NCBI RefSeq assembly: GCF_900129725.1
Contig: NZ_FQWQ01000001.1
Span: 1,302,001 to 1,366,000, forward strand
Reading direction: 5' to 3'
Length of the DNA: 64,000 bases
Origin: Chryseolinea serpens
GTDB taxonomy: Bacteria > Bacteroidota > Bacteroidia > Cytophagales > Cyclobacteriaceae
Part shown: piece after piece, positions 55,854 through 63,555 of the stretch
Layout of the letters: each line of letters begins with the position of its first letter
Numbering within the stretch: position 1 is the first letter of the stretch
The notes under the pieces: generated by a model
Database searches by the model: none
What the model saw: only the letters and a program-made list of their open reading frames with translations
Told to the model about the DNA's origin: nothing
Translations under genes and position numbers: made by a program

Positions 55854-56462
55854 CTAGTGCCAGCCAAAGCCCATTTGCACAACAAAACGTTGCATGTCCT
55901 CCAAAACGGAATACTTTGGATATTCGTATGGAGTGCCATCGGGCGCAAAGACTTCCGGAAAGTTATAGTCGTAGGTGTATTTATTCCGCTGGAATTTATA
56001 GCCCAAGGCAACATAGATCCGGAACCGGTCGGCTTTGATCCGGTAGCCCAACATGGGATTGAACATCTTCCCACCACCATTTTCGATCCCGGCCGGTACA
56101 CCCATTCTATCCTCACCCGTATAGACGGCACGGCCATAGCCGCCGTTCATTTGGATAAAAAGGGCATCGTTCTTTATCCGGGCAAAATCAAACGACGCGC
56201 TGGCAAACATCGGGATCACTTTCCAATCGCCATAGGCATCCAAGCCCGCCCCCAACCCCACCGCCAGGCGTCCCAGGCGAATGCCATGGGTGGTAGCAAA
56301 TGAAAAAAACACTTCTTTGTGGTCTCCCCGAAGACCTCCCAAAAGGAAATTGTTCCAGTACCGGATCTTTCCGCCGGCATGCCCGACGCTGTCGGTCTGC
56401 GCAAACGCCTGGCAGGTCAGAAGTAAAAACAGGAAAAAGAAAAGACGAGGTTTAGTCGACAT
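55854..56462 (-). CDS. Putative outer membrane beta-barrel protein
   Basis: 202 aa. Signal peptide FFFLFLLLTCQAFAQ, then alternating short beta-strands with [33 protein letters not shown] and RIYVALGYKFQRNKY, ending in FVVQMGFGWH as barrel strands often end in aromatics. No closer family recognised. It starts inside the last 11 bases of the LVIVD lipoprotein gene, so the two are coupled. The terC remnant lies 17 bases downstream. Confidence 0.8.
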   Translation of the reverse strand: MSTKPRLFFFLFLLLTCQAFAQTDSVGHAGGKIRYWNNFLLGGLRGDHKEVFFSFATTHGIRLGRLAVGLGAGLDAYGDWKVIPMFASASFDFARIKNDALFIQMNGGYGRAVYTGEDRMGVPAGIENGGGKMFNPMLGYRIKADRFRIYVALGYKFQRNKYTYDYNFPEVFAPDGTPYEYPKYSVLEDMQRFVVQMGFGWH

Positions 56463-57795
56463 GCGGGACGATATCTATATGACTGAGCAACGTGATCTTG
56501 GAAGCATCAGAATAGTCATATTGATAGATGCCGTCCGTGCCGATCATCATCAGCACATCGTCGAAAGGAATAACATCGATGGCATTGATGTCTTTGTAAT
56601 GGGCCAGGAGGTGCTTGTCGATGGCGTTTATGTCCGAAGCGTCGAAGGCTTTGAGGCCGTCGTCTCCGTCGCAGATAAACAAGGTGGTGTTGTCAATGCC
56701 GAGGCCATGGGGATTCGTAAAGGGATAGACCTTCAGGATCTGGGGCGAGGCAAGGTTTTTAATGTCGATCACCTCCAACTGGTTGGTGAAGCCTTGACAG
56801 GTCGTTCCCGAACGGAGGGTGACGTAAGCATACTGGCCGTCCACTACCACCGGGTCGCAGCTCCGGATGTGCTCATAGGTGCTCACCTTCACCGGGGCCT
56901 CGGGCGAAGAGATGTCGAAGATATGCATGCCCGCTGTGGACCCCACAAAAATATTCTTGTCGTATGGAAAAATGGTTTCTATTCCCCAGGCTACGTTCAC
57001 CCGCGATTTGGCCATGGGACTGGTTTCCGTGGTCACGTCAACCACTTGCATATCAGGGCCGTCCAACAGATAGAGGTGGCCTGCGTTGAGGGCGAACCGG
57101 TTCAAAGAACCGCCCACTCCAGGGCCAGAGCCGGTCCCCGGAGTGATGGCGGCCTTTGCATTAAAGTTCGACGCGGCAGCGCTCGACAACGCGATACCGC
57201 GATCAAAATATACTCCACCCCAGGGCTGCAAAACCGTTTCACAGTCGGGTTCGGATAAATTCACCATTTTCTTTTTCTCCCAGTCGGTCACCACGCCGTT
57301 CTCATTAACGGTGAAACCGAGGGAGCCCACGTTTGTGAAGACATTTTCCAGTCGGGCGATCTCATGAATGTTGTTCAGGTCGCGGATGTCGAAGGCCACC
57401 AGGTCCACATAACTGTCCGTATAGAGCGTGTTGCCCTTTACCGCCAGTTCGTAGCTGCCGGGCACGCTCAAAAACTTCTGCGCCACGGGGTGGGCCGGGT
57501 CGGCGTTGTTGATGATGTGGATGCCGTTGCCGGGTTCATTCACAAACAGGGTCTCTCCTTTGTAGTAGATCTTTCCTACGGCTTCCAGCGCCTTCGGGGC
57601 CTCTACCTGGACGCTGTTGCGCAGCTCGGCTATCGGAGTGTAGACCGGCTCGTAATAGGCATACTCGCTGGTCAGTTGACATTTGTCGGAGCAGCCTTCC
57701 AGCAGAACGCTGATCCCTAAGAGTACCGTCAAAAAAAGCAAGGCATACAGAGATACATGTATCCGTCGCTGCAGTCTGTTCTCTAGTGTATCCAT
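56452..57795 (-). CDS. LVIVD-repeat lipoprotein
   Basis: 447 aa. Lipobox LGISVLLEGC (Cys35 after a long basic n-region). The rest is a beta-propeller with repeats of the LVIVD kind: GNGIHIINNADPAHP, VDLVAFDIRDLNN, DMQVVDVTTETSPM, AGMHIFDISSPEAPV, NQLEVIDIKNLASPQ, DGLKAFDASD. Such proteins bind others on the surface. It follows the sigma/anti-sigma pair by 61 bases and is coupled to the barrel gene. Confidence 0.9.
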   Translation of the reverse strand: MDTLENRLQRRIHVSLYALLFLTVLLGISVLLEGCSDKCQLTSEYAYYEPVYTPIAELRNSVQVEAPKALEAVGKIYYKGETLFVNEPGNGIHIINNADPAHPVAQKFLSVPGSYELAVKGNTLYTDSYVDLVAFDIRDLNNIHEIARLENVFTNVGSLGFTVNENGVVTDWEKKKMVNLSEPDCETVLQPWGGVYFDRGIALSSAAASNFNAKAAITPGTGSGPGVGGSLNRFALNAGHLYLLDGPDMQVVDVTTETSPMAKSRVNVAWGIETIFPYDKNIFVGSTAGMHIFDISSPEAPVKVSTYEHIRSCDPVVVDGQYAYVTLRSGTTCQGFTNQLEVIDIKNLASPQILKVYPFTNPHGLGIDNTTLFICDGDDGLKAFDASDINAIDKHLLAHYKDINAIDVIPFDDVLMMIGTDGIYQYDYSDASKITLLSHIDIVPHVD

Positions 57796-57856
57796 ATAAC
57801 GGTGGGTTTTTGGGTTTACGTGTTAGACACAACCATCCGTTAAAAGGTTGGACAGG

Positions 57857-59650
57857 CTAGCGAAAAATGTAGCGGAACCGAAGGCCCACATCAAAGGTGA
57901 GCGGAGTGGATTGAATACCGATGTCGGACTTGTATACGGAGTTGATGGGATAACGCAATCCCGGGTTCAAAGCAAGCCTATAACGATGTCCGAATTTGTA
58001 ACTCAATTCTGTTCCCATTAGACCGCTAAAATTCACCGACCGATACGGCGAATCGTCCCCTCTTCCCTGGGTTGTCTTATCTAAACTGCCACCCTCGGGA
58101 GTTATTGTATTCTGGAGGAACAAATCCGTCGACAATCCTGCGTTCAGCTGCAGTCCGAATTTCCGGTTGATCACCAGGTAGCCCGCCTGCACCGGCACAC
58201 TCATAAACTGGACGTTGTTGTTCACCGAATACGGGAAGGTCGGTGCACTCTTATTTCTGGCGTTTGCATCTGCCGACTGCGATTGTTGGGTGATGTCGCC
58301 ATACGAAGCATTGATGGACTCTGCCTTGAGCGACTGAAAATTGTCGGAAGCCACCACGCTGTTAGCGGTGTAGTTAGAGGACTGTGTCAGGTAGTTCACA
58401 CCACCTTGGATCAGCCACCGTTTCGAAAGTTTTGCTCCCATGCTCACACCGACGGAATAGGAAACACCCGATGCCTTGGCCTGCTTATCGGCCACATTGT
58501 TGCCATTGGAGGCCGGGCTATTGAATGCAGCTAAGCTTGCAGAGGTAGTAGGTGAAACACTGCTATTGAGCGAGTTAAACCCGCCAGCAGCAAAGCCCAC
58601 CGATGTCCACAACTTCTCCGACGTCTGTTGCTTTTCCTTCTTGTCCTCATCCGCGTAGGCCTTCTCTTTAAGCGCCAGCTCAGCCAAGAGCCGTTCACCT
58701 GGATCAATTTGATCACCCGGGAGTTTGAGCTTGGGAGAATTCATTTTATAGAATGGCGGCAGGTTCCGCGCCGTAAACACAAACGGCTTGTAACCATCCC
58801 ATTCCTCCTCCGAGGCAACCAACGGCTGGCTCTGCTGGGCAAAAGCGTCGCTGTTTGCGTTTTTTTCGGAGGTCGGTTTATCGTTCGTTAAATCCTTATA
58901 ATCAGATGTTTGAGTTGATTTAACTAAAGCCAAAGATGAAGATTTATCCGAAGAGACAGTACTTTCTCCTGTGATTTTGGAGGCATTCGCCTTAGTATCC
59001 GTCAACCCGGTTTTGGAATCTGCCACCCCATGATTTGCCTTTTGAGATGCTTCTGCACTTGCCAACGTGGGCTGTACAGGTTGAACCGATTCGGATGTTA
59101 TCTGCTCTTTATCGTTGATTATCTGTGACTTAACCGACGCCTGATGCGTCCCTGTTCCGTTTTTTGTGGAAGTATTCCTTTTTGCTTGAGCGATCAATAC
59201 ATCGCCATCGCGCGACGTTTCCGGTGTAAATGAAGCGTTACTCTCTTCGGTCGAAGTCAGCGAACCATTTCCGTTTTTATCGTCTAATTCAGATATATTA
59301 TTTTGATTATCAGGTATTTCAACCGATTTACTTATAGTTTCATTTGAGGAAAGCGTTTCTTCTGTGCCCAAAGGCCCTTGTGTGCTGTTGACGGACAAAG
59401 CATTGTCCCCTGCTCCGGATTCATTCTTCGTTACGGTGTAATAGCCAAGACCTGCCATACACATAGCAAAAGCAACCGAGGCGGCTGCCACCAGTTTATA
59501 GAAGACGATCCTGCGGCGCATCTTGTCGCCCTCAGCGCGTTCCAGGTCCAGCTCGATGTTCGTCCATACCGTTTCGGTCGGACTCGCCTCGGCTCCCGAA
59601 AATGCGTCTTTCACGGCATCCTCAAATTTTCGCCTCTCCATATCGTTCAT
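57857..59650 (-). CDS. Membrane anti-sigma-like protein fused to an outer-membrane barrel-like domain
   Basis: 597 aa. N-terminal cytoplasmic region (residues 1-50: MERRKFEDAVKDAFSGAEA), one membrane helix at about 51-72, a long Ser/Thr/Asn/Lys-rich linker at about 75-290 and a beta-rich C-terminal domain (VGFAAGGFNSL, GVSYSVGVSMGAKLSKRW, FGLQLNAGLST, RYRLALNPGLRYPI, ending VGLRFRYIFR). The start overlaps the ECF sigma gene by 29 bases, which makes the N-terminus the probable sigma-binding part. It spans the inner membrane; whether the barrel-like end reaches the outer membrane is unclear. Confidence 0.85.
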   Translation of the reverse strand: MNDMERRKFEDAVKDAFSGAEASPTETVWTNIELDLERAEGDKMRRRIVFYKLVAAASVAFAMCMAGLGYYTVTKNESGAGDNALSVNSTQGPLGTEETLSSNETISKSVEIPDNQNNISELDDKNGNGSLTSTEESNASFTPETSRDGDVLIAQAKRNTSTKNGTGTHQASVKSQIINDKEQITSESVQPVQPTLASAEASQKANHGVADSKTGLTDTKANASKITGESTVSSDKSSSLALVKSTQTSDYKDLTNDKPTSEKNANSDAFAQQSQPLVASEEEWDGYKPFVFTARNLPPFYKMNSPKLKLPGDQIDPGERLLAELALKEKAYADEDKKEKQQTSEKLWTSVGFAAGGFNSLNSSVSPTTSASLAAFNSPASNGNNVADKQAKASGVSYSVGVSMGAKLSKRWLIQGGVNYLTQSSNYTANSVVASDNFQSLKAESINASYGDITQQSQSADANARNKSAPTFPYSVNNNVQFMSVPVQAGYLVINRKFGLQLNAGLSTDLFLQNTITPEGGSLDKTTQGRGDDSPYRSVNFSGLMGTELSYKFGHRYRLALNPGLRYPINSVYKSDIGIQSTPLTFDVGLRFRYIFR

Positions 59651-60179
59651 AGTACGTTGATTCCTTTAATAACTTAGCCTGCAACAGGCTCTTCGCCCGC
59701 GCAAACTGCGACTTCGATGTTCCCTCCGATATCCCCAATGACTCTGCTATTTCTTTATGGCTGTAGCCCTCGATGGCAAAGAGGTTGAACACGATCTGGC
59801 ATCCCTGCGGCAGGGCTTGGATCATCTCCAGCAACTGGGTAAAGTGGATCCCGGAAATGCTCATTTCTTCTTCGGGCAGGTTGATCTCCGCCACGTCCAC
59901 CATCGGATAGAGGTATAGTTTTTTGCGCTGAACATTTAGGGCTGTGTTCACCATAATGCGCGTGATCCAGGTCTCCAGTTTTGCTTCCTGGCGGAAGTCC
60001 TTTATGCCCTGAAATACTTTTACAAACCCCTCCTGCAAGATGTCTTCCGCTTCGGCGGTTGTTTTCGAATAACGGAGGCATACTACCAGCATTTTTCGGC
60101 AATAGCGGTCATACAAAGCTTTTTGGAAAGCCCTGTTGCCTTTGCGACATCCCTCAATGAGTTCTTGTTCGCTGAGCAT
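59622..60179 (-). CDS. ECF-type RNA polymerase sigma factor
   Basis: 185 aa. Sigma region 2 with TAEAEDILQEGFVKVFQGI and region 4 helix-turn-helix with GYSHKEIAESLGISEGTSKSQFARAK; length and gap between them are those of ECF sigma factors. It controls an envelope-linked regulon when released from the membrane protein encoded next, whose ATG lies 29 bases inside its 3' end. The divergent T9SS plug gene starts 79 bases upstream. Confidence 0.95.
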   Translation of the reverse strand: MLSEQELIEGCRKGNRAFQKALYDRYCRKMLVVCLRYSKTTAEAEDILQEGFVKVFQGIKDFRQEAKLETWITRIMVNTALNVQRKKLYLYPMVDVAEINLPEEEMSISGIHFTQLLEMIQALPQGCQIVFNLFAIEGYSHKEIAESLGISEGTSKSQFARAKSLLQAKLLKESTYYERYGEAKI

Positions 60180-60258
60180 GTACCCTTATAATTCCGCCAT
60201 TTTACACATTAGACACCCGCATTAACGGAAAAGTTGGAAATGGTTATCTTTAACGCCA

Positions 60259-61536
60259 ATGAAGTATAGCTATCTTTTCCTGCTGTGTGCCAGCCTGACG
60301 GCCTGCACACCCATCTCACAAAGTTCGTCGAATTCCACCGGTAATACTAAAGTACTGAGGCTGTTGGACTTTGCCTACGAACCCCAGATCAAAACCATCC
60401 AGTTGGGCCCTACCGGCGCCCCCGCCGCACCCGCGGTGACGGCCCTCGGACAATGGAACCTGCTGCTTCAATTCGACGACCTGCGCCCCGAGCGCGACAC
60501 CTACTATGTAAAATTTGTCCACTGCAACCACGACTGGACCAAATCCGACCTGCAGGACCTGGATTTTCTAGAAACCTACAACGAGTTTCCCATCAATAAC
60601 TCCGAGTTCTCGGTCGATACCCACATTCCCTTTGTACACTACTGGGTAGGCCTGCCCGGGGTGAAGATCCCCGGCAACTATGTGGCTGTCGTCTACCGCG
60701 GGAGTGATAAGGGCGACATCGTGTTGAGCAAGCGTTTCATGGTGTTTGATTCGCAGGTGAGCTTCACCAGCAACGGCAACCTGCTGGGTCCGGGCACCGT
60801 GGCCAACCTGAACCAGCAGCTCAATTTCAGCATCAGCTATCAAAATCTCGACATCAACAACCCGCTGATCGACGTGCATGTGAACATCCGCCAGAACCAG
60901 CGGTGGGACAATATGGCCAGCGACATCAAGCCCAGTTTCGTTCATGACATTGAAAAAGAACTGGAATACCGCTTCTTCGACGAGTCTAAAATGTTCCGGG
61001 GCGGCAACGAGTTCCGTTTTTTTGACCTGCGCTCGCTCAACTATCCGGGCCGGAACGTCGCCTATGTGGACAAAAAGCAAAAGCCTTTCGACGCCTTCGT
61101 CGCCAAAGACAAAAGCCGCAACGGCGAATCCTACGCGCAATACAACGATCTCGACGGTGGCTACAACATCGACAATCTGGACTACAACAAGGAGCTGGCC
61201 TATTCCAACTATGTGAATGTGAATTTCTCGTTGTCCAGCCCGCCCGTGAGCGGCGACGTGTACGTGACGGGTGCCTTCAACTACTGGAACCTGAACCAGG
61301 AGAACAAGATGCATTACGACTCGGCCAAGAGCCAATATTCAGCCCGCGTTTTGTTAAAGCAAGGCTGGTACGACTATCAATACCTCGTGAAATCATCTAC
61401 CCTGCCCCCCTACTATTTTGAGGGCAGTCATTTTGAAACGGAGAATTATTACGAGATCCTGGTGTATTACAGACCCTTCCAGCCCCGTGCGGACCTGTTG
61501 ATCGGTTATATACGGTTGGATAAGAACCCGCGCTAG
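60259..61536 (+). CDS. DUF5103, type IX secretion system plug protein
   Basis: 425 aa. Lipoprotein-like N-terminus (YLFLLCASLTAC, Cys16), then the DUF5103 body: YYVKFVHCNHDWTKSDLQ, FVHYWVGLPGVKIPGNYVA, SYQNLDINNPLIDVHVNI, FFDLRSLNYPGRNVAYVD and GDVYVTGAFNYWNLN. In Flavobacterium the Plug protein closes the SprA translocon of T9SS when no cargo is present. Here it fits with the T9SS-sorted proteins in the window. A TATCTTTA at 60245-60252 may be its -7 box. It converges on the cas6-like gene with a 4-base overlap. Confidence 0.88.
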   Translation: MKYSYLFLLCASLTACTPISQSSSNSTGNTKVLRLLDFAYEPQIKTIQLGPTGAPAAPAVTALGQWNLLLQFDDLRPERDTYYVKFVHCNHDWTKSDLQDLDFLETYNEFPINNSEFSVDTHIPFVHYWVGLPGVKIPGNYVAVVYRGSDKGDIVLSKRFMVFDSQVSFTSNGNLLGPGTVANLNQQLNFSISYQNLDINNPLIDVHVNIRQNQRWDNMASDIKPSFVHDIEKELEYRFFDESKMFRGGNEFRFFDLRSLNYPGRNVAYVDKKQKPFDAFVAKDKSRNGESYAQYNDLDGGYNIDNLDYNKELAYSNYVNVNFSLSSPPVSGDVYVTGAFNYWNLNQENKMHYDSAKSQYSARVLLKQGWYDYQYLVKSSTLPPYYFEGSHFETENYYEILVYYRPFQPRADLLIGYIRLDKNPR

Positions 61537-62339
61537 GCGTAGTTCATGTCGTGCTGGGGCGCACGGTGGATGGAGTCGTTGTTGGCCACGTCCAGCATGC
61601 CGAAGCCTTTGTGCGTGAAGTAGCCCAATCCATTTTCATAGATGAACTGCTGCACTTCCTTGGCGGCGTATAGCGTGAACGGGAACGTGTAGCCACGCAC
61701 CTCGAACTTGACGTCGTTGTCGTATAACGGATAAATACGCGCAAATTTCTTATGTGAGGCCTGGATACGCTGGATGTAGTCGTGGTCGGCTACGATCTGG
61801 AATTTATAGAATGAGGCCAGTTGTTCGGCCGTGTACTTGCCGGTGGCTTCCATCCGCGAAAGCGTGGCGTCGTAGAGCAGATCGGAGAACTCGTCGCTTT
61901 CGGGCGATACGAATTTCTTGCCGCTCTCGTCGTTGAAGGTGGCCGGGATCACTACGATGGGTGAAATACAGAGAAAGCGCGATTCGTCGGTGATCGTTAC
62001 GGGCTCCTCCTCTTCTACCGATTCGGGCACCAGGTGCATGTTGCCGACGATGACTTCCTTTTGTTCAAAAAGGCGGGCCAGGAAATAGTCCATAAACGCC
62101 TTGTCGGAACAGGCGAACACGAGCGTGACCTTGGCGGAAAAATAATGAAGACCTTTGCGGCTTACTTTGGTCTGACCTTTCAGTCCGGAAAAGTTATACT
62201 GGTTGAATTCCACATAGCTTTTCTCGGGCCCGAATATGAGCAGCCCTTTGATCACTTGCGCCAGCAAGTATTGATGGTGAAATGGAACGTAAGCACCCCT
62301 GTTTTTCAGCGAAAAAATAATTCTGGTTCTCAAACCCAA
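61533..62339 (-). CDS. Stand-alone Cas6-like endoribonuclease (no CRISPR or cas genes nearby)
   Basis: 268 aa from TTG at 62339 (or TTG at 62333); an in-frame TAA lies upstream and there is no ATG or GTG, so a TTG start is forced. RAMP-type ferredoxin-like features: N-terminal IIFSLKNRGAYVPFHHQYLL, with His21/His22 placed like the catalytic His of Cas6; FNQYNFSGLKGQTKV, FSAKVTLVFAC, and the C-terminal glycine-rich GLGYFTHKGFGMLDVA typical of Cas6. In CRISPR loci Cas6 cuts pre-crRNA. No cas gene or repeat array occurs in this window, and the gene lies between the T9SS plug gene and ychF. Confidence 0.78.
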   Translation of the reverse strand: MGLRTRIIFSLKNRGAYVPFHHQYLLAQVIKGLLIFGPEKSYVEFNQYNFSGLKGQTKVSRKGLHYFSAKVTLVFACSDKAFMDYFLARLFEQKEVIVGNMHLVPESVEEEEPVTITDESRFLCISPIVVIPATFNDESGKKFVSPESDEFSDLLYDATLSRMEATGKYTAEQLASFYKFQIVADHDYIQRIQASHKKFARIYPLYDNDVKFEVRGYTFPFTLYAAKEVQQFIYENGLGYFTHKGFGMLDVANNDSIHRAPQHDMNYA

Positions 62340-62457
62340 AAAAGTTAAATGGGGTTAAAAAATTACCGTAGCAAAAAGCCTGCTTAATACTGAATATGAG
62401 CAGTTTATAAAACTAAGAAAAAAACAGAAAGGTTCTAATGAATTTTGAGGGAAAACT

Positions 62458-63555
62458 TTACACGTTGAACCGGAAGTGCATTATGTCACCATCCTCTACC
62501 ACGTATTCCTTGCCTTCAACGGACATTTTACCGGCCTCCTTACAGGCCTGTTCGGTCTTATATTTCTGATAATCAGCCAATTTAATGACTTCCGCGCGGA
62601 TAAAGCCCTTTTCAAAGTCGGTGTGGATCACTCCCGCTGCCTGGGGGGCCTTCCAGCCCTTTTGGATGGTCCAGGCCCGCACTTCTTTTTCGCCGGCGGT
62701 GAAATAAGTGATAAGATCCAATAAATGGTACGAGGCGCGGATGAGCTTATTGAGGCCGGATTCGGTCAGGCCATACTCCTGGAGGAATACTTCGCGGTCT
62801 TCCTGGCTCTCCAACTCGGCTATCTGTGCTTCGATTGCAGCACTGATTACGACCACCTCGGCATTTTCGTGTTGGACGTGGGCTTTCAGCGCATCGACAT
62901 GTTTGTTGCCGGTATGAATGGAGTCCTCCTCCACGTTGGCCACATAGATAACGGGCTTGGCGGTCAATAATTGCAGGTCGGCGACGGCAACTTTATCTTC
63001 CTCGCTCACCTGGAGGGCCCGGGCGTTCTTGCCGGCAAGCAAGGTTTCCCTGTATTGCTGGAGAACGGTCAGCTCTTTCTTCATTTTCACATCGCCGCTT
63101 TTGGCAGCGCGTTCAACGCGGTTGATTTTCTTGTCGATCGACTCCAGGTCTTTCAGTTGCAGCTCGGTGTCGATGATCTCCTTGTCGGAAACGGGATCGA
63201 CGCGGCCGTCAACGTGGACGATATTGTCGTTTTCGAAACAGCGGATCACGTGCACGATGGCATTCACCTCGCGGATGTTGGCCAGGAACTGGTTGCCCAG
63301 CCCCTCCCCTTTGCTGGCACCCTTCACCAGGCCGGCAATGTCCACAAACTCGATGGTAGTGGGTAGCACGCGCTGGGGGTTCACCAGCCCTTCCAGGATC
63401 TTGAGCCGGGGGTCCGGCACGCTGATAATGCCTACGTTGGGCTCTATCGTGCAGAACGGAAAGTTGGCGGCTTCCGCCTTATTGTTGGAAATGGAATTGA
63501 ACAGGGTCGATTTTCCAACGTTTGGCAATCCTACTATTCCGCACTGAAGTCCCAT
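62458..63555 (-). CDS. ychF: Redox-regulated ATPase/GTPase YchF (OLA1 family)
   Basis: 365 aa from ATG at 63555; the longer frame upstream is not conserved. Walker [22 protein letters not shown] (switch), [20 protein letters not shown] (G3), a coiled-coil insertion at about 130-180 and the C-terminal TGS domain ([40 protein letters not shown]). The G4 motif is the altered NxxE type (YVANVEEDS) that gives ATP preference. It binds the ribosome. 118 AT-rich bases separate it from the cas6-like gene. Confidence 0.97.

Follow-up and report, generated by a model that had tools for sequence, protein, structure and literature searches.

The window analyzed here, a 64,000-nucleotide stretch of the Chryseolinea serpens genome (contig NZ_FQWQ01000001.1, called C10 below, positions 1302001–1366000; the assembly is 8.36 Mb and 99.3% complete), contains a solo cas6 gene. 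The open reading frame (ORF) at 61533–62339 on the minus strand is confirmed and encodes a Cas6-fold protein. Cas6 is the enzyme that normally cuts the guide RNA of clustered regularly interspaced short palindromic repeats (CRISPR). The presence of the solo gene does not track CRISPR in the genomes sampled, and the gene is under strong purifying selection. Judging from sequence comparison, the protein may be a CRISPR-independent, Cas6-derived housekeeping RNA-binding factor that is possibly still a slow RNase, an explanation to which we assign a probability of about 0.5. If so, a nuclease of CRISPR would clearly have been recruited as an RNA factor of the cell, in a lineage that is strongly constrained, is present in about half of the order genomes sampled, and often occurs without CRISPR.

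Cas6 fold and active-site residues

The window protein matches PF01881 in Pfam with 79.6 bits (curated cut-off 23) and TIGR01877 in NCBIfam with 67.2 bits (curated cut-off 58.65). All 14 of its PADLOC matches are Cas6 models, with Cas6b at E 5.6e-27, and all 22 members of alignment A2 are matched by both the Pfam and the NCBIfam profile at an E value no higher than 0.001. The best match among PDB sequences is 3ufc, presumably PF0393, both with the single sequence (E 1.3e-7) and with the family profile (E 2.6e-20), and the family profile also finds 3qjj at E 9.4e-17. The AlphaFold2 model (m60b850d302e6, 37 aligned sequences) has a mean predicted local distance difference test score of 79.6 and a predicted template modeling (TM) score of 0.80. 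The top PDB matches of the model in Foldseek are all Cas6 structures, namely 3ufc (TM 0.76), 3qjj (0.73), and 5yi6 and 3i4h (0.70 each). Besides a profile score over the cut-off, the protein has the two domains of the repeat-associated mysterious protein (RAMP) type and the C-terminal glycine-rich loop of the Cas6 superfamily. The Cas6 relationship and the glycine-rich C-terminal motif had been proposed in an earlier, sequence-only reading, and both are borne out, the former by the profiles, the PDB sequence search, and the model-fold search, and the latter by GLGYFTHKGFG, which we take to be the RNA-binding loop of Cas6 proteins.

The canonical catalytic positions should be noted, since they differ clearly between the solo family and its relatives. 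We aligned 48 solo rows with 12 comparison rows, the latter called CRISPR-type from their residues and low solo-profile scores, with surroundings not checked singly. At the column of the canonical catalytic His, every one of the 48 solo rows has a gap, whereas 10 of the 12 comparison rows have His; the canonical catalytic Tyr is found in none of the solo rows and in 10 of the comparison rows. The whole LHExGY segment, which carries the catalytic His, is missing from 48/48 solo members. Two comparison rows (L109 and the L129 row) likewise have no canonical His; the latter (crispr_L129) does not represent the Cas6 of its locus but another RAMP-like ORF there. The N-terminal His pair that the sequence-only reading expected of Cas6 is present as H19-H20, but it differs from the usual catalytic His, whose segment is absent.

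Passages of PMC3652601 give Tyr31, His46, and Lys52 as the triad of Pyrococcus furiosus Cas6 (PfuCas6). Neither a Tyr31-type residue nor a His of the PfuCas6 His46 type, the marks of a CRISPR-associated Cas6, is present in the solo proteins. They combine a Cas6 fold with the absence of both residues, as non-catalytic Cas6 paralogues of the 3ufc type do; the same passages describe 3ufc as a non-catalytic P. furiosus Cas6 and report that the archaeon also has a catalytic paralogue.

Among the alignment columns printed, H20, S49, K52, D183, Y186, K195, R199, D248, and the four Gly residues of the loop are invariant in the 48 solo rows, and H19 is kept in 41 of them. The loop Gly residues (235, 237, 243, and 245) are also invariant in the 12 comparison rows. 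By contrast, the comparison rows seldom or never have K52, K195, R199, or D248: Lys is found at position 52 in one comparison row and at position 195 in two, and Arg at position 199 in none.

These residues bear on a possible alternative, which we hold tentatively. The protein may cleave host RNA as an active, sequence-specific endoribonuclease whose site has been relocated, such that His20 would act with Lys52, Lys195, or Arg199 in place of the Tyr/His pair. The invariance of these four residues, together with the scarcity of the latter three in the comparison rows, is consistent with such a site, as is the location of the catalytic His in helix 1 of Cas6e and Cas6f and the plasticity of Cas6 active sites described in passages of PMC3652601. 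However, His occupies the H20 column in 4/12 comparison rows and each of them has the canonical His too, suggesting that H20 may serve structure or binding. Of the closest structures, 3ufc and 3qjj, the former is the one described as non-catalytic in that source.

Relation to CRISPR-Cas and inheritance of the solo gene

A scan of the genome for cas genes and arrays had been proposed from the sequence alone. By profile search, no Cas1, RAMP-Cas7, or Cas9 was found in the window's genome (Cas10, Cas12, and Cas13 were not searched for), and the eight Cas3-core matches score at best 40.9 bits, below the cut-off of 102.45. Such weak Cas3 matches are present in 60 of the 60 genomes searched and are taken as other helicases. 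All four cas markers are accordingly without an over-cut-off match, whereas the array scan covered only C10:1–1646000 (1.646 Mb, about 20% of the genome; the remaining 80% was not scanned), where no CRISPR array is present. The solo gene in the window's genome is neither in nor near a cas operon or a CRISPR array, in agreement with the solo status claimed earlier, and no cas genes were recognized by eye among the listed ORFs flanking the solo loci.

As a control, the array script found a 16-copy array in locus L130 and none in six other control loci. In 88 solo loci, the scan gave candidates only at L123 (9129) and L204 (8054). Two further repeat candidates lie on C10 at 639770 and 1087383, with units about 95% alike. 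Overall, the repeat units of the L123, L204, and C10 candidates are 73–115 bases long and 86–100% alike, and all are judged to be tandem repeats, not CRISPR.

Orthologues of the solo gene occur in 51 of the 60 genomes of the window's family, the window's own included. Regarding CRISPR INDEPENDENCE in these family genomes, Cas1 is found in 24 of the 51 carriers (27 are without it) and in two of the nine non-carriers (Fisher p 0.28). Over-cut-off Cas3 (11 genomes), Cas9 (15 genomes; none of 14 control genomes over the cut-off), and RAMPs (five genomes) are all found in Cas1-bearing genomes, and 27 of the 51 carriers have none of Cas1, RAMP-Cas7, Cas3, and Cas9 over the cut-off. Four genomes (G018, G020, G043, and G053) have a second, different Cas6, 20–26% identical, within about 12 kb of Cas1.

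The sequence-only reading had suggested that the protein could serve a distant array in trans, that is, process CRISPR RNA for arrays elsewhere in the genome. Some of the carriers with Cas1 could use the solo Cas6 in this manner. However, the presence of the gene is independent of Cas1, and the window's genome has neither the markers nor an array in the part scanned, which disfavors this explanation. The separate Cas6 near Cas1 in the four genomes and the missing canonical catalytic residues also stand against it, and we regard it as highly improbable. The other suggestion of that reading, a role outside CRISPR, is supported.

Two loci with cas genes show further features. The array of L130 starts from 18854, has CRISPR spacing, and is near Cas1 and Cas3 of G053, which is also a carrier of solo cas6. 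In L129, the ORF of 240 codons adjoining the Cas6 of G018 encodes the second RAMP-like protein mentioned above, which has a glycine-rich loop but no LHExGY segment. It resembles an ORF in L109 (G342) and is possibly another Cas6 or a Cas5 variant.

Beyond the family, the solo-family profile matches 150 of 291 genomes in the order sample, 144 of these with scores of at least 207 bits. In the class sample, 41 of 395 genomes match, 27 strongly, and in the phylum sample 77 of 395 match, nine strongly, all nine from the window's family (f1), with the others scoring no more than 96 bits. The scores are bimodal across the samples, and we call a match solo-type at 200 bits or more, which sets aside the weaker genomes (68 in the phylum, 14 in the class, and six in the order sample). 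The weaker matches with a readable N terminus mostly keep the LHExGY segment, though many phylum matches are unreadable by motif over the active site.

The gene order is kept in relatives, as the sequence-only reading had asked. Among 55 named loci, 53 have ychF upstream in the same orientation, 54 have the plug gene of the type IX secretion system (T9SS) convergent downstream, and 53 have both. Among 20 loci sampled from 14 other families, one of which (L201) belongs to a genome already in the named set, ychF is adjacent in eight (L194, L195, L196, L200, L201, L202, L206, and L208), and the plug gene without ychF is found only at L203. Over 54 loci, the identity of cas6 to the window tracks that of ychF (Spearman 0.72) and of the plug gene (0.95); this parallel rise and fall fits vertical descent. 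In a tree of the 48 solo and 12 comparison rows, the solo rows form one group with 100/100 support, separated by a branch of 1.64, the root not being known. The solo locus L206 was missed by the motif in choosing the rows, and one gene appears twice, as L085 and L201.

Two metagenome-assembled genomes, L033 and L039, should be mentioned here. They are named 'uncultured Bacteroides' and 'uncultured Chitinophaga', and their cas6 genes are 91% and 89% identical to that of the window. Both cas6 and the gene order fit the Chryseolinea-Ohtaekwangia group, and the leader of L033 resembles that of Ohtaekwangia koreensis (L034); the record names may be wrong.

The nonsynonymous to synonymous substitution ratio (dN/dS) of cas6, calculated by the Nei-Gojobori method with our own script, is 0.004–0.12 in nine of 15 partly non-independent pairs, dS being saturated in the other six. 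The ratio for ychF is similar (0.006–0.13 in the six measurable of eight of the cas6 pairs), and that for the plug gene (0.026–0.148) is higher than that for cas6 in all four measurable pairs. In the 14 closest loci, the identity to the window is 80–96% for cas6, 71–90% for ychF, and 61–79% for the plug gene. The cas6 genes of L045 and L046, two UBA genomes, have a dN of 0.003 and a dS of 0.78, giving a dN/dS of 0.004, compared with 0.024 for ychF.

The mode of inheritance bears on two further explanations. One is a stand-alone anti-phage or anti-plasmid defense gene built on the Cas6 fold, since Cas6 proteins belong to defense systems and every PADLOC match is a Cas6 model. Though the distribution is incomplete, the conserved synteny is not the patchy, mobile distribution of defense genes. 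Vertical inheritance, housekeeping neighbors, and very low dN/dS are likewise unlike mobile defense genes, and no defense partner was recognized by eye, without profile searches, among the flanking ORFs of 16 loci without ychF. We consider this explanation improbable. The other reverses the order of descent: the solo family would be left over from an ancient RAMP unconnected with CRISPR, and the Cas6 of CRISPR systems would have arisen from that ancestor. The long, fully supported branch in the unrooted tree is consistent with this. However, in the genomes sampled the strong matches lie within one class only, and such a narrow distribution inside the widespread Cas6 family argues for derivation from Cas6. 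In addition, a deletion is the simplest explanation for the missing canonical segment. An ancestral origin is thus very unlikely, and we infer the descent of the solo family from a CRISPR Cas6.

Predicted role and comparison with known systems

Under the preferred reading of a housekeeping RNA-binding factor, an old orthologous Cas6-fold family would have left CRISPR and become a vertically inherited gene of Cytophagales and some other Bacteroidota. The protein is predicted to bind host RNA through the retained glycine-rich loop and the solo-specific invariant set of H20, K52, K195, R199, and D248, and may work as an RNA chaperone or regulator that possibly also cleaves slowly. The TTG or GTG start, as described later, would hold the protein level low; we infer low expression of solo cas6, as the sequence-only reading had proposed.

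PMC8138138 describes Escherichia coli YchF as contacting initiation factor 3 (IF3) and the small ribosomal subunit and repressing the translation of leaderless mRNA. The frequent place of the solo gene beside ychF makes translation-linked RNA metabolism the first place to look, and by this analogy a functional link of solo Cas6 with YchF is suggestive. In a fuller version, which we find rather unlikely as a whole, a Cas6 would have been domesticated early, in an ancestor shared by several Bacteroidota orders, and become a slow-evolving housekeeping RNA factor acting together with YchF on RNA linked to translation. It would have lost CRISPR catalysis and gained new invariant residues, and its low level in Cytophagales would be set through a conserved non-AUG start tunable by the status of IF3 and YchF.

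Several observations weigh against a housekeeping RNA-binding factor of this kind. The gene is not universal, being absent from nine of the 60 family genomes and about half of the order sample. Neither ychF nor the plug gene adjoins cas6 in 11 of the 20 loci from 14 other families, and outside the order ychF is missing beside cas6 in eight of 12 loci, being adjacent at L115, L121, L122, and L123. The start is ATG in all 12 loci of families f24, f41, f62, and f71 and in five of the 17 other-family loci read. The mean identity over 54 loci is 69.5 for cas6, 78.0 for ychF, and 51.4 for the plug gene, indicating that cas6 changes faster than ychF at longer range. Finally, the loss of the canonical residues is no proof of lost cleavage, because the Sulfolobus solfataricus Cas6 cleaves without the histidine according to passages of PMC3652601.

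That enzyme (Sso1437) is comparable with the solo family in having no canonical histidine and is described in those passages as acting through basic residues; unlike the solo family, it is a demonstrated CRISPR repeat nuclease. The archaeal proteins 3ufc (P. furiosus) and PH0350 (3qjj, P. horikoshii) are among the best fold and family-profile matches, though the identity is only 18–20%. Unlike 3ufc, which has the catalytic paralogue alongside in its archaeon as noted above, the solo family is kept vertically in a bacterial order, and its carriers include genomes in which the cas markers searched are missing. Canonical Cas6 and Cas6b (TIGR01877 and PF01881) share the profiles, the two-domain fold, and the glycine-rich loop with the solo family, but not its lack of the catalytic Tyr and the LHExGY His, of recognized cas neighbors, and its vertical inheritance. 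Solo Cas4 and solo Cas1 are a precedent; passages of PMC5704561 describe such cas genes as lying apart from CRISPR loci, being inherited mostly vertically, and having no known function. Solo Cas4, a different protein, is under selection near the genomic median in that description, whereas in the measured pairs solo cas6 and ychF have similar dN/dS values.

No report of this solo Cas6 family was found among the matches listed in full-text literature searches, nor in passages of PMC5294841, PMC3150331, PMC8730458, PMC5379612, PMC5704561, and PMC8616872. The first of these, in the passages concerned, treats isolated cas loci that have at least three genes, and the word cas6 is absent from its main text. 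Since TIGR01877, an equivalog of NCBIfam named 'CRISPR-associated endoribonuclease Cas6', recognizes the window protein above its cut-off and all 22 family members tested at E 0.001, automatic annotation probably assigns solo genes a CRISPR role they do not have, and the genes may be counted as stray cas6 in CRISPR surveys.

Start codon, leader, and neighboring genes

The features of the locus are listed in Table 1. Residue numbers run from the conserved TTG start at 62333.

Table 1. Coordinates of the solo cas6 gene and neighboring features in the window
Feature	Position	Strand	Basis
Solo Cas6-fold protein, 266 residues	61533..62333	(-)	Profiles, PDB sequence search, predicted fold, aligned start
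His-His-Gln, residues 19-21, start of helix 1	62271..62279	(-)	Alignment; helix 21-33 in model
Glycine-rich loop GLGYFTHKGFG, residues 235-245, C-terminal	61599..61631	(-)	Alignment
ychF, upstream of cas6, same direction	62458..63555	(-)	PF06071, 141.7 bits
T9SS plug gene, convergent with cas6	60259..61536	(+)	PF17116, 107.2 bits
Conserved 57-nucleotide element in ychF-cas6 gap: T-tract, TTAGYTTTATAAWC, then 4-bp stem	62370..62426	(-)	24-locus alignment

The plug gene and ychF are confirmed as the flanking genes, and the convergent overlap reported from the sequence alone is 4 bases (61533–61536). Two in-frame TTG codons are found at the 5′ end of cas6, at 62339 and 62333. The weak TTG start claimed in the sequence-only reading is real and conserved, but alignment places it at the second codon instead of the first. 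Of 85 loci read at a single alignment column, some of them duplicates because two collections share genomes, 60 start with TTG, 23 with GTG, and two with ATG; in the non-redundant set (n = 56) the numbers are 41, 14, and one. In the same loci, ychF starts with ATG in all 70 loci read (the motif was found in 70/85), and the control starts are ATG in 36/37 ABC-F genes and 38/39 plug genes. The start was read in 17 of the 20 other-family loci and is TTG or GTG in 11, ATG in five, and TTA in one, the last with a GTG just before. A non-ATG cas6 start is thus conserved in most Cytophagales members read.

In the Chryseolinea-like clade, the conserved element between ychF and cas6 extends from roughly 93 to 37 nucleotides ahead of the cas6 start. 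In its stem, eight alignment cells are changed on both sides, compared with 2.7 in shuffles; this is weak evidence, as a partner slid by two columns still gives four doubly changed cells. The RNAalifold energy is also weak (−1.0 kcal/mol), and promoter and terminator scans of 62300–62480 found nothing. In the last 100 nucleotides before cas6, 34 of 100 columns have at least 90% identity (22 loci), versus 15 of 82 in the control gap between the plug and sigma genes (21 loci). Since this control gap holds a promoter-like site, the element may be a promoter too; a leader or a ychF terminator may also be considered.

Three other interpretations of this region were rejected. As a repeated target, the element has one strong copy in the genome by covariance model, the source itself (76.4 bits; the next is 16.5), suggesting that there is no set of such sites. 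A PreQ1 riboswitch match antisense to the cas6 leader, at 62384–62422 on the plus strand (Rfam 21 bits; gathering threshold 39), is found only in the window's own genome (L001) and not in eight other loci, and was dropped as chance. A small antisense ORF over the element, with a partly conserved frame xE(R/Q)(F/I)IKL, has no conserved start and has upstream stops in many loci.

Upstream of ychF, at L001 3671–3722 on the minus strand, a strong G+C hairpin followed by T residues matches the sRNA BjrC68 of Rfam with 26.2 bits (threshold 39) and is probably an intrinsic terminator. On the other side of the plug gene, promoter-like sites of the extracytoplasmic function (ECF) type, CCAACNTTT and then GTGTCTAA, are located at 60209–60237 and 57823–57851 on the minus strand, with a chance expectation of 0.00. 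One precedes the ECF sigma gene at 59622–60179 and the other the gene at 56452–57795. The site is recognizable by eye in most of the 21 related plug-sigma gaps, which suggests an autoregulated ECF sigma factor with a small regulon.

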